Below are positions 35,232-41,441 of a stretch of DNA of 64,000 nt, piece after piece. The translations under genes were made by a program, and so were the position numbers. This DNA comes from Salipaludibacillus daqingensis (lineage in GTDB: Bacteria > Bacillota > Bacilli > Bacillales > Salisediminibacteriaceae). Numbering within the stretch: the first letter of the stretch is position 1; each line of letters opens with the position of its first letter. The notes under the pieces were generated by a model. It searched no databases and had not been told where the DNA came from. It saw nothing but the letters and a program-made list of their open reading frames with translations. Where the stretch lies: positions 491,160 through 555,159 of the forward strand of contig NZ_JARZHF010000002.1 in NCBI RefSeq assembly GCF_029891575.1, given 5' to 3'.

Positions 35232-35669
35232 TTACTCAGGTACTCTATCTATATCTGCATCGTACCCTCTTATATAATCTTCGGACATTTCCCCTTCTGC
35301 AAAAAGAACAAACCTCTCTGTTTTTTCTTGCCCATCTATTTCAACCGTTACTTCCGCATACCATTCCCCTTCCATAGCTAGAGGAAGGTCTAATGCAAAT
35401 TTTCCTTTATCCTTTTCTTCCATCGTTCCTGTCATAGGATGATTCATACGCTCCATATTCATGTAAAGAAATACTTGATCTGCTGAAATATTCTCTCCTT
35501 CTTTGTCTATTAAGGCTACTTCATATGTATGAAATACTCCAGTTTTATGAATTTCATTTTCATTCATAAATTTAATCTCTGTCTCTTCTAACGCGGAGGG
35601 AGATTGGCAAGCCACTATTAATACGATGAAGATACTAGAAATTGTCATAAAATCGACGATTTTTTTCAA
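35232..35669 (-). CDS. YtkA/FixH-like lipoprotein
   Basis: A 145-residue exported lipoprotein with lipobox LIVAC (Cys21) and a beta-sandwich domain containing the YtkA-like elements FHTYEVALIDKEGE and MERMNHPMTGTMEEKDKGKF, and LAMEGEWYAEVTVEIDG. Related proteins are found with cytochrome oxidase assembly and copper-handling genes; the Met/His residues in ERMNHPM could bind copper. It is divergent from the CECC thioredoxin-like gene and CcdA. TTG at 35669 follows AGGGGTGTATCAAGA. A function in metal or redox handling at the membrane surface is inferred from context. Confidence 0.75.
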   Translation of the reverse strand: MKKIVDFMTISSIFIVLIVACQSPSALEETEIKFMNENEIHKTGVFHTYEVALIDKEGENISADQVFLYMNMERMNHPMTGTMEEKDKGKFALDLPLAMEGEWYAEVTVEIDGQEKTERFVLFAEGEMSEDYIRGYDADIDRVPE

Positions 35670-35771: not shown

Positions 35772-36293
35772 TTGGGGAATAAAATAGGGATCGGATTAAT
35801 AATTTTCATTTTAGCTGGAATGGGGTATACAGCTTATAATTTTATTTTTAATAGTGAGTCAGGAGATATATCAACGGTTACTCGCATTCACGCGGAAGAA
35901 CCTTTATTATTAGCTGACTATATTGGAGAAAAGAAAACAATTTTACAATTTGTTGCTGTACCTTGCGAATGTTGCAGTTACTCGATGCCTTTCATCCAAG
36001 AATTTATTAAAAAACAAGATGAAATCGAAGTGATTACCGTTGTTTTTTATGGACGAGAAAAAGAAATACTTGATAAGTTTCAGAATGAATATGAAGCAAC
36101 CCATGATTGGGGTGTGGATTTAGATCGAAATTTAGCAAACTACTATGATGTCTCTGTTTCGCCAACTTATGTATTTTTTGATGAGGAAGGAAATGAAATG
36201 GGAACGCATCCATATATTATTGCAACTGGTGAAGAACTAGGTACACGTTATGAAGAAGCTTATGAAACATACCACGAAGAAGAGGATTCCTAA
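35772..36293 (+). CDS. Membrane-anchored thioredoxin-like protein with CECC motif
   Basis: A 173-residue protein with an N-terminal membrane anchor (IGIGLIIFILAGMGYTAYNFIF) and an outside thioredoxin fold. The active site reads VPCECCSYSMPF, so Cys65 and Cys68 form C-x-x-C with an extra Cys67 inside. The cis-Pro loop is YYDVSVSPTYVFF, as in TlpA/ResA relatives. It should pass electrons from CcdA to envelope thiols. The start is TTG 35772 behind a G-rich site; ccdA follows with TAA immediately before its ATG. The extra Cys suggests metal (copper) binding or a persulfide intermediate. Its partner may be the selenolipoprotein 0.9 kb downstream. Confidence 0.8.
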   Translation: MGNKIGIGLIIFILAGMGYTAYNFIFNSESGDISTVTRIHAEEPLLLADYIGEKKTILQFVAVPCECCSYSMPFIQEFIKKQDEIEVITVVFYGREKEILDKFQNEYEATHDWGVDLDRNLANYYDVSVSPTYVFFDEEGNEMGTHPYIIATGEELGTRYEEAYETYHEEEDS

Positions 36294-36983
36294 ATGGATA
36301 TTTGGTTTGCTTTTGTTGCAGGATTTCTTTCTTTCGCTTCTGCTTGTATCCTTCCATTAATACCGAGTTATATCGCCGTCATTACTGGGGTTACATTGAC
36401 AGAGCTAGATGAAGCTCCTGCTCAGCGTTTTAAAATTTTACCAAGGTCTATCGCCTTTGTCATTGGCCTTGTTTTCCCTTTAATCATAATCGGGATGGGT
36501 GCAACCACTGTCGGTTCTTTCTTTACGCCTGCAGTTTCCACCTTTTTATCACAATTTTTCGGTTTTATTGTAATCATTTTTGGACTGTACCTTCTCGGTT
36601 TATTAAATATTCAGATGTTTCAACGAGAGATTCGATTCCACCGTTTTTTCAAAAGAAAAGGTGGGCTCTTTAGTGTGGTCGTAATGGGCATGGCTTTCGG
36701 ATTTGGCTGGACACCTTGTATTGGACCTATGTTAAGTTCTATCCTTATACTTGCCGCTGATTCAACCACCTTTTGGCAAGGTGGTGGATTATTATTTGTA
36801 TATGGAATGGGGCTTGGGCTACCATTTATTTTGATCGGTCTAGCTGGAAGCGCAAGTTTGAATTTTTTAAAGTTTTTACAAAAACATATGAAAATCATTT
36901 CTATCGCCAGCGGTATTTTTCTCATAGTTCTCGGCCTATTACTTGTGACAGGCAATATGGCTTATATTACTCCAAGTATATAA
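36294..36983 (+). CDS. ccdA: CcdA, transmembrane thiol-disulfide transporter
   Basis: A 229-residue six-helix membrane protein. The two conserved cysteines lie in SFASACILPLIPSY (Cys18) and GWTPCIGPMLSSIL (Cys142), as in CcdA/DsbD. It takes electrons from cytoplasmic thioredoxin and passes them to extracytoplasmic thioredoxin-like proteins. The ATG follows the stop of the CECC protein without a gap, so the two are translationally linked and surely work as a pair. It would supply reducing power for cytochrome c maturation or for the Cys/Sec lipoprotein encoded next. Confidence 0.93.
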   Translation: MDIWFAFVAGFLSFASACILPLIPSYIAVITGVTLTELDEAPAQRFKILPRSIAFVIGLVFPLIIIGMGATTVGSFFTPAVSTFLSQFFGFIVIIFGLYLLGLLNIQMFQREIRFHRFFKRKGGLFSVVVMGMAFGFGWTPCIGPMLSSILILAADSTTFWQGGGLLFVYGMGLGLPFILIGLAGSASLNFLKFLQKHMKIISIASGIFLIVLGLLLVTGNMAYITPSI

Positions 36984-37145: not shown

Positions 37146-37188
37146 GAGTTTATATCATGTATATCATCATTTAAAGGAGAGATCTTTC

Positions 37189-37632
37189 ATGCGAGTTAAA
37201 CATTGGTTGCTCATTTTAATCACTAGTGCTGCGTTTATCGTTATTTCGGGGTGCAGTGAGGAGCTTGAGACTGCTTCTTTTCCAGACTTTGTTGTGGATG
37301 CCGTTCACCCTGGCGCCATGGCGGCATATGAATATGCAACAACACATGGAGAGCATTTAGAATATATTCCATGTTATTGTAATTGCTTGTTAGAACCTTT
37401 TTACCATAAGAATACTAAAGATTGTTTTATCAACAGTCAGCAATCAATAAAAGATGATATCGTTTATGATCCTCACGGTGCCGGCTGAGGAATATGCATT
37501 GAGATTGCACTGGATGTGCAACAAATGGAAATTGACGGATATACTTTATTAGAAATTCGAGATTATATTGATAAACAGTACTCAAAATACGCTGATCCTA
37601 CCGATACACCTTTTCCTCCTGCTGATCTATAA
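37189..37632 (+). CDS. PCYCGC-family lipoprotein, predicted selenoprotein with in-frame UGA
   Basis: Read through one TGA (37486-37488) this is a 147-residue lipoprotein: signal peptide with lipobox VISGC (Cys22), the PCYCNC motif at 61-66, Cys79, then HGAG-U100-GIC103 and EIALDVQQME...LEIRDYIDKQY. In PCYCGC proteins (PF13798) this last motif is Cys-Gly-x-Cys, so the UGA falls exactly on a redox or metal-binding Cys and the family sequence continues in frame. A hairpin 16 bases after the UGA fits a bacterial SECIS. The ATG follows AAAGGAGAGATCTTTC and an FNR-type promoter. It follows ccdA on the same strand. Function unknown; thiol redox or copper handling is inferred. A nonsense mutant is the alternative reading. 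Confidence 0.82.
37505..37521 (+). promoter_or_regulatory. Predicted bacterial SECIS hairpin of the selenolipoprotein mRNA
   Basis: Stem TTGCAC/GTGCAA (6 bp) with loop TGGAT. The loop begins 22 bases after the UGA and has G in its first two positions, as known bacterial SECIS elements require for SelB. Confidence 0.72.
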
Positions 37633-37636
37633 CGAG

Positions 37637-37671
37637 CAAAAGAAGAAGATCATGTGACCTTCTTCTTTTGT
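37637..37671. terminator. Bidirectional terminator after the selenolipoprotein
   Basis: Perfect 12-bp arms CAAAAGAAGAAG and CTTCTTCTTTTG overlap the last codons of the convergent EAL gene. Confidence 0.75.
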
Positions 37672-40732: not shown

Positions 40733-40778
40733 AAGTCCTTTCCAGTCAAGGCTAGCCTTAGCTGGAAAGGACTTTATT
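40731..40778. terminator. Bidirectional terminator between the membrane protein and arsC
   Basis: Arms AAAGTCCTTTCCAG and CTGGAAAGGACTTT with a 16-base loop containing further pairing, T-rich on both ends. Confidence 0.82.
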
Positions 40779-41197
40779 TATCTACCAGTTTCTTTAAACT
40801 GTTTAATCCGATCGCCGATTTGATCGCGGACAGATTGAAATACTGTCCACTTTTCTTCCTCTGTTCCTTCTGCTTTAGCAGGGTCGTCAAATCCCCAATG
40901 GACTCTCTCTTTATTTTTAGGTGTAGCTGGACAGACATCATTCGCATGGCCACAGAGGGTCACGACTAGATCTGCTTGTTCCAACAAGGTAGGATCAATT
41001 GTATCTGACGTTTGATCTGTAATATCTATTTCTACTTCATTCATTGCTTTCACTGCTAATGGGTTTACTCCATGCGCTTCAATTCCTGCAGAATACACAT
41101 CCCACGCTTCACTTAAATAGTGCTTTCCCCATGCCTCAGCCATTTGACTTCGACACGAATTGCCCGTACATAAAAAATAAATCATTGGTTTTGTCAA
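40778..41197 (-). CDS. arsC: Thioredoxin-coupled arsenate reductase
   Basis: A 139-residue protein, exactly the classical ArsC length when started at TTG 41197, which lies eight bases after GGAGGTTACAAAA. It has the phosphatase-like loop CTGNSCRSQ (Cys10, Cys15) and the redox pair Cys82 and Cys89 in LCGHANDVC, the same numbering as the Bacillus enzyme. It reduces arsenate to arsenite with electrons from thioredoxin. No arsR or arsB lies next to it, so export would depend on genes elsewhere. It could also act as a low-molecular-weight phosphatase, but the Cys triad favours arsenate. Confidence 0.93.
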
Positions 41198-41441
41198 TTT
41201 TGTAACCTCCATATAATGATATAGTTATATAATAACATGATCATTTAGATGTAAAAAGATAATTTTATGTTAAAAAAGTTAAGGTTTTGTAAAGGAATGT
41301 ATTTCTATAATTATTTCACTCGGGAAATCTTTTTCGTTACTCGACAACTATATTACTAATTCATGTATAATATAAAGAGTTACTAAAAAATAGCTTTTAT
41401 AGTATTTACTCATTCGATTTTTTGAGAAAGAGAGGAATAAA

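Follow-up and report, generated by a model that had tools for sequence, protein, structure and literature searches.

A PCYCGC-family lipoprotein of Salipaludibacillus daqingensis with a predicted selenocysteine at an in-frame UGA codon

The hypothetical protein OS_HP4 is said to have been described first from a gutless-worm symbiont. In the available part of a 2026 review, it is listed as "CYCXC family protein (hypothetical protein OS_HP4)", with the Pfam family PF13798 (PCYCGC), a UxxC motif and one selenocysteine (Sec) residue (PMC13188914), and OS_HP4 with UxxC appears also in the accessible text of PMC9312934; the selenoprotein family as such is not new, PF13798 being already listed as a predicted one. 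A cysteine (Cys)-type PCYCGC lipoprotein, AOT13_14730 of Parageobacillus thermoglucosidasius, is described in the accessible part of PMC13068155 as a protein of unknown function. Here we analyze a gene of this family in a stretch of 64,000 nucleotides from the genome of Salipaludibacillus daqingensis (Bacillales; contig NZ_JARZHF010000002.1, positions 491,160 to 555,159; hereafter, the window), in which an in-frame UGA codon is very likely read as Sec. A first-pass annotation of the window had called such a lipoprotein little described, which holds for the branch found in Bacillales and does not hold for the family, given the UxxC entry for PF13798 in the 2026 review (PMC13188914). The available portions of the main text of that review contain neither "lipoprotein" nor "bacill", those of the deep-Sep article (PMC12013277) neither "pcyc" nor "lipoprotein", and those of PMC5029168 mention Bacillales solely for the selenouridine trait; among the matches listed for the open-access literature on PCYCGC, CYCXC/OS_HP4 and Bacillaceae selenoproteins, there was no account of the Bacillales lipoprotein branch, its hairpins or its gene neighbours. 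The new elements are the lipoprotein clades of Bacillales with their hairpins, the truncation of database entries at the UGA, the upstream TlpA-CcdA pair in two lineages and a weak, distant likeness to the thiol oxidoreductase CcmH.

The gene starts with ATG at 37189 and contains a single in-frame TGA, codon 100, followed by 47 codons up to the TAA at 37630-37632; the open reading frame (ORF) finder yields only a 115-residue ORF in the window that ends at the TGA at 37486. The PF13798 profile match runs through the TGA, from residue 30 to residue 143 (E 1.1e-27; 97.3 bits against the Pfam gathering cut-off of 25), so that the protein belongs to the PCYCGC family, and the frame proposed in the first-pass annotation, with its lipobox, PCYCNC motif and family-like extension beyond the TGA, is borne out. 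The family pattern, PCYCxC with a later CxxC, is represented by PCYCNC and UGIC. Across the 43 rows of the family alignment (A2), C62, C64, C66, H73, C79, H96, U/C100 and C103 are invariant; the lipobox I-S-G-C has its C22 conserved in 12/12 rows of a narrower alignment (A1), not in the wider set, and the product is predicted to be a surface lipoprotein held by a lipid anchor. With the NF041379 model (CYCXC/OS_HP4), the window protein shares PF13798 homology, the CYCxC motif and a single Sec in UxxC; it differs in being a lipoprotein from Bacillales, in having CYCNC and in its score of 59.9 bits, below the equivalog cut-off of 90, a threshold exceeded in none of the 398 sampled genomes of the phylum. 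The lipobox, the three motif cysteines and further conserved cysteines are common to the window protein and AOT13_14730, which, unlike the former, is described with Cys only (it is known here by its description).

The assignment of UGA 37486 to Sec, a prediction that we consider very likely to be correct, is well supported by the continuation of PF13798 across the TGA, the Sec machinery of the host, the restriction of this alignment column to Cys or TGA, a covarying hairpin and an association with selA. For comparison across the family, 76 distinct frames were extracted from 108 loci, with frames sharing the last 90 residues counted once. At the column in question, 34 frames have TGA and 42 have Cys, with no other residue; a recheck of the 108 loci found a record in each, and no frame had been dropped for another letter. 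The Cys three residues past this column is present in 76/76 frames. The earlier proposal that UGA takes the place of the first Cys of a C-G-x-C motif thus stands, and homologues with a different sense codon at residue 100, which would have spoken against it, did not appear. Among the 34 Sec forms, the N-terminal motif is PCYCGC in 20, PCYCNC in 13 and PCYCSC in one.

The hairpin TTGCAC-TGGAT-GTGCAA, which the first-pass annotation had placed 16 nt past the UGA with a loop at 22 nt, is confirmed in this position, with G as the second loop base. In bacterial selenocysteine insertion sequence (SECIS) elements, the loop lies 16-37 nt after the UGA and has a G within its first two bases, a rule that the window hairpin, with its loop UGGAU, satisfies. 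The 45 nt past the TGA have a minimum free energy z-score of -2.15, with 5 of 200 shuffled sequences folding at least as well. The same hairpin stretch accompanies a TGA at the same codon in four relatives, namely, two members of Salipaludibacillus, Evansella clarkii and Anaerobacillus alkalilacustris. In the alignment of the window's clade (clade 1; A3, 15 rows), the 6-bp stem retains standard pairs in 90/90 cells, with double changes at two pairs (CG to UA in 5 rows and UA to CG in 1); the covariation score was reached by none of 500 shuffles, and slid structures pair in 17-66%. The 20 other Sec rows (A4) have a hairpin of another sequence, mostly TAGCC-CGTGA-GGCTA, at nearly the same position; here, and in the 22-row set that adds L131 and L133 (A6), pairing is 100% and two pairs show double changes. 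For A6, again, none of 500 shuffles reached the covariation score, and the plain number of doubly changed pairs was unremarkable, being matched by 107/500 shuffles. At the positions of the clade-1 hairpin, all six pairs are present in 14/34 Sec rows, precisely the 14 of clade 1, and in 0/42 Cys rows.

Selection on this region is apparent at both the nucleotide and the protein level. The hairpin codons are frozen (in clade 1, CTG 14/14 and GAT 14/14; in the other Sec rows, GCC 19/19 and GAG 19/19), and the Gly codon preceding the TGA is nearly so (GGC in 11/11 and 17/19), whereas most codons flanking the hairpin use several synonyms. Over the 35 codons past the TGA, nonsynonymous divergence (pN) is below synonymous divergence (pS) in 91/91 pairs of the 14 clade-1 Sec sequences, and past the TGA of the other Sec rows the same is observed in 171/171 pairs.

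The host genome (4.58 Mb in 27 contigs) encodes the required machinery: selA (525 bits, cut-off 268), selD (405 bits, cut-off 125), selB (365 bits, cut-off 242) and tRNA-Sec (found by ARAGORN; Rfam RF01852, 61.2 bits, cut-off 47) lie together in a locus of about 7 kb on contig C12, so that the absence of these genes, which would have undermined the earlier proposal, can be set aside. The selD gene itself (L003, at about 10955 of G000:C12) contains an in-frame TGA (KAG-U-GCK), and the host SelD is therefore probably a selenoprotein. A single TGA, within T-U-H-A-P, is likewise present in each of two formate dehydrogenase alpha genes that exceed the family cut-off; a third gene above it has no internal stop. 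Together with the PCYCGC lipoprotein gene, selD and the two formate dehydrogenases bring the genome to at least four selenoprotein-type genes. In one of the dehydrogenase genes (L125), as in the window gene, a hairpin with a loop of five bases lies past the in-frame UGA, although the loop is GGUCU and the product is a molybdoenzyme of another family.

In the host's GTDB family, 10 of 35 genomes have the gene; of its 11 occurrences there, 10 contain one TGA and the other, encoding protein P0003 of Evansella caseinilytica (L017), has Cys. In the host's order, 209/397 sampled genomes match the clade profile, and TGA forms occur at no fewer than 28 places, in at least 26 of these genomes, with U-x-x-C at the same site in all 28 TGA places listed. 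Two more Sec forms, L131 and L133, come from the phylum outside the order; they share the motif, and their hairpins show additional compensatory changes. Two Sec copies coexist in some genomes (L104, at 3624 and 13404; L110 and L111 of G183), and one, G050, carries a Sec copy (L079) along with a Cys copy (L090). Among 50 chosen genomes of the order, selA is present in 23/23 of those with a Sec form and in 7/27 of those with only Cys forms (Fisher 2.4e-8, a value that ignores kinship, with the Cys-only genomes drawn from the best PF13798 scorers). Within the host family, 28/35 genomes have selA, including 8 of the 9 with a Sec form, the ninth genome being 76% complete. The tree of the 76 proteins implies three changes between Sec and Cys, all forced by the starred branches: one at the main Sec group, one at L110, a single Sec row surrounded by Cys rows, and one at L017, a Cys row within the Sec rows. 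The L017 gene, which has a Cys codon and branches within the Sec clade, retains 5/6 pairs of the hairpin in a genome that still has selA, and it likely represents a recent Sec-to-Cys change, with the hairpin partly decayed, as judged from the sequences.

Table 1. Features of the Sec lipoprotein locus (window positions) and the TGA-containing formate dehydrogenase genes elsewhere in the genome (contig positions).
Feature	Coordinates	Strand	Evidence
YtkA-like lipoprotein, divergent neighbour, retained in part of the clade	35232..35669	-	PF13115 E 2.4e-4, below cut-off; cluster in 8 loci
TlpA/ResA-like thioredoxin-fold protein, C-E-C-C motif, possible electron donor	35772..36293	+	Redoxin/AhpC-TSA; ResA model
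CcdA-like membrane protein (DsbD_TM), possible electron donor across membrane	36294..36983	+	PF02683 E 4.7e-17
Probable ribosome-binding site AAAGGAG	37173..37179	+	sequence
Predicted Sec-containing PCYCGC (PF13798) lipoprotein gene	37189..37632	+	147 residues with Sec100; TGA read through, PF13798 across TGA, TGA-form relatives
Lipobox Cys22 codon (ISGC), predicted lipid attachment site	37252..37254	+	sequence; conservation in A1
PCYCNC motif, residues 61-66	37369..37386	+	P61, C62, C64, C66 invariant in 43/43 rows of A2
UGA codon, predicted Sec100 of U-G-I-C	37486..37488	+	column Cys or TGA in 43/43 (A2) and 76/76
Cys103, second half of UxxC	37495..37497	+	invariant in 43/43 (A2) and 76/76
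Predicted bacterial SECIS hairpin, 6-bp stem, loop UGGAU	37505..37521	+	folding z -2.15; covariation in A3
12-bp inverted repeat, loop 10, between convergent genes, possible two-way terminator	37637..37670	.	sequence
Formate dehydrogenase alpha gene with TGA (L125)	G000:C1:126935-128953		T-U-H-A-P
Formate dehydrogenase alpha gene with TGA (L126)	G000:C13:53106-55121		T-U-H-A-P

Examination of the gene neighbourhood (Table 1) suggests a redox context. The pair of a TlpA-like and a CcdA-like protein lies upstream in 9/14 distinct clade-1 loci. It directly adjoins the lipoprotein gene in the window and L004 (also L005), and at least one gene intervenes in the other seven; the intervening gene is, we presume, mostly PAP2-like and on the opposite strand. 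The TlpA-like protein matches Redoxin/AhpC-TSA at E of about 1e-5, slightly below the Pfam cut-offs, and the ResA model with 40 bits, far below the cut-off of 170; in it, C-E-C-C replaces W-C-x-x-C, as is also the case in the relative L087. Outside clade 1, the Sec gene at L106 is directly preceded, on its own strand, by genes for a ResA-like protein and CcdA, so that the TlpA-CcdA link has either arisen or been kept twice; no such pair was found at the remaining 18 non-clade-1 Sec loci within the stretches fetched.

Other neighbours of the gene in relatives are connected with metals or respiration. A cluster with a CopA-type (copper-type P-type) ATPase, one member of which was checked by Pfam, is present at 5/19 non-clade-1 Sec loci; ZnuA and a CsoR-type regulator are found at L103, SCO1 at L097, a multicopper oxidase at L098, NapB at L088 and a NapA-like molybdoenzyme at L085. 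Genes that we take to be arsenic genes occur at L007/L093, L090 and L110. Cys forms on plasmids of Exiguobacterium and Paenibacillus lie near heavy-metal P-type ATPases, and no such ATPases were found near the Cys forms of Priestia and Thermomicrobium. In the window, the ORF at 40778-41212, 3.1 kb downstream, is homologous to a protein encoded near the PCYCGC gene in L007, L083, L090, L093 and L110; we assume these to be arsenate-reductase-type proteins. Plasmid p1 of Cytobacillus firmus (L119) carries annotated System I genes CcmE, CcmF, CcmH and CcmB along with a TlpA-family gene; System I genes are unusual for a Gram-positive.

Profile and structure comparisons suggest that the PCYCGC proteins may have a CcmH-like fold, the likeness being remote and weak. 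Profile-profile alignment with hhalign matched CcmH at 91-93% over 34-37 columns, and the trimmed profile scored 42 against CcmH, compared to a maximum of 19 among 60 column shuffles; with the CcmH profile (PF03918), 8/43 rows match weakly, at E up to 1 (best 0.0099). For structure models of two members, CcmH structures rank first, and in the models the loop joining helices 1 and 2 holds the Cys motif, at the place of LRCPKC in CcmH (PMC3884852, as far as its accessible text goes). The predicted order of a helix, a Cys motif in a loop and two helices may be common to both, and CcdA-like and TlpA-like partners are encoded beside the window gene, reminiscent of the CcmH/CcmG/CcdA pathway of apocytochrome c thioreduction. 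In contrast to CcmH, the window protein has PCYCNC in place of LRCxxC, a long Cys/His insert with UxxC and a predicted lipid anchor instead of a transmembrane helix.

Taken with its neighbours, the window lipoprotein, its UGA read via the hairpin, is somewhat likely to be an extracytoplasmic thiol/selenol oxidoreductase fed by the upstream TlpA-like and CcdA-like proteins, and a redox relay is the role that we favour, with no more than modest confidence. Under this scheme, the hairpin at 37505-37521 would help UGA 37486 to be read as Sec100 of U-G-I-C, and electrons would pass from cytoplasmic thioredoxin through CcdA and the TlpA-like protein to the PCYCNC/UGIC site. Judging from the neighbours in relatives (CopA, SCO1, NapAB and the multicopper oxidase), the best guess for the substrate would be exported thiol proteins or copper/heme proteins. 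The more specific proposal that the PCYCGC proteins make up a lipid-anchored branch of the CcmH fold in Gram-positives, to which a Cys/His/Sec site has been added, and that the cluster forms a CcdA-TlpA-selenol relay reducing exported thiol, copper or heme proteins, is tentative and, to our mind, less likely than not.

A metal-binding role, in which the conserved Cys/Sec residues and the two His would bind a soft metal at the surface of the cell, for instance copper, zinc or arsenic, with Sec100 serving as a ligand rather than as part of a relay, is the main alternative, a serious possibility that we nevertheless hold to be less than even. Such a role would fit the invariance of these residues, the metal-related neighbours of the relatives and the heavy-metal ATPases next to the plasmid Cys forms; against it, the genes immediately upstream in the window are redox genes, no metal-binding Pfam family matched more than one of the 43 members, and UxxC is counted among redox-related motifs in the available part of the 2026 review (PMC13188914). 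It is improbable that the main role of the UGA is that of a selenium-sensitive switch, whereby low selenium would give a 99-residue lipoprotein with PCYCNC and without the C-terminal helices, both forms being of consequence. Truncation would leave the entire secreted N-terminal part, and the coexistence of Cys and Sec copies in G050, or of two Sec copies elsewhere, could be accommodated; homology and purifying selection, however, persist past the UGA, and the C-terminal half seems to be needed because all 42 Cys forms extend past the site with the second Cys present. An ordinary stop codon with a decayed remainder of the gene behind it, in a pseudogene or through a sequencing error, would agree with the 15 database proteins (99-131 residues) that, besides the window's own ORF, end one residue before the TGA codon, but is refuted by the same TGA in 34 distinct genes from many genera, the selection past the TGA, the hairpin covariation and the selA association.

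Since the same 15 entries stop short of the UGA, the annotation lacks part of the conserved site. With Sec forms, Cys forms and at least one likely Sec-to-Cys reversion that left a partly decayed hairpin, the family offers a natural comparison for asking what Sec contributes outside the membrane. The link to CcdA, TlpA and CcmH, if true, would open a way to the function of PF13798, which takes its name from a motif alone; and if the relay of the CcmH-fold branch exists as proposed, no extracytoplasmic CcdA pathway of Bacillales known before would have ended, as this one would with the Sec form, in a selenoprotein.
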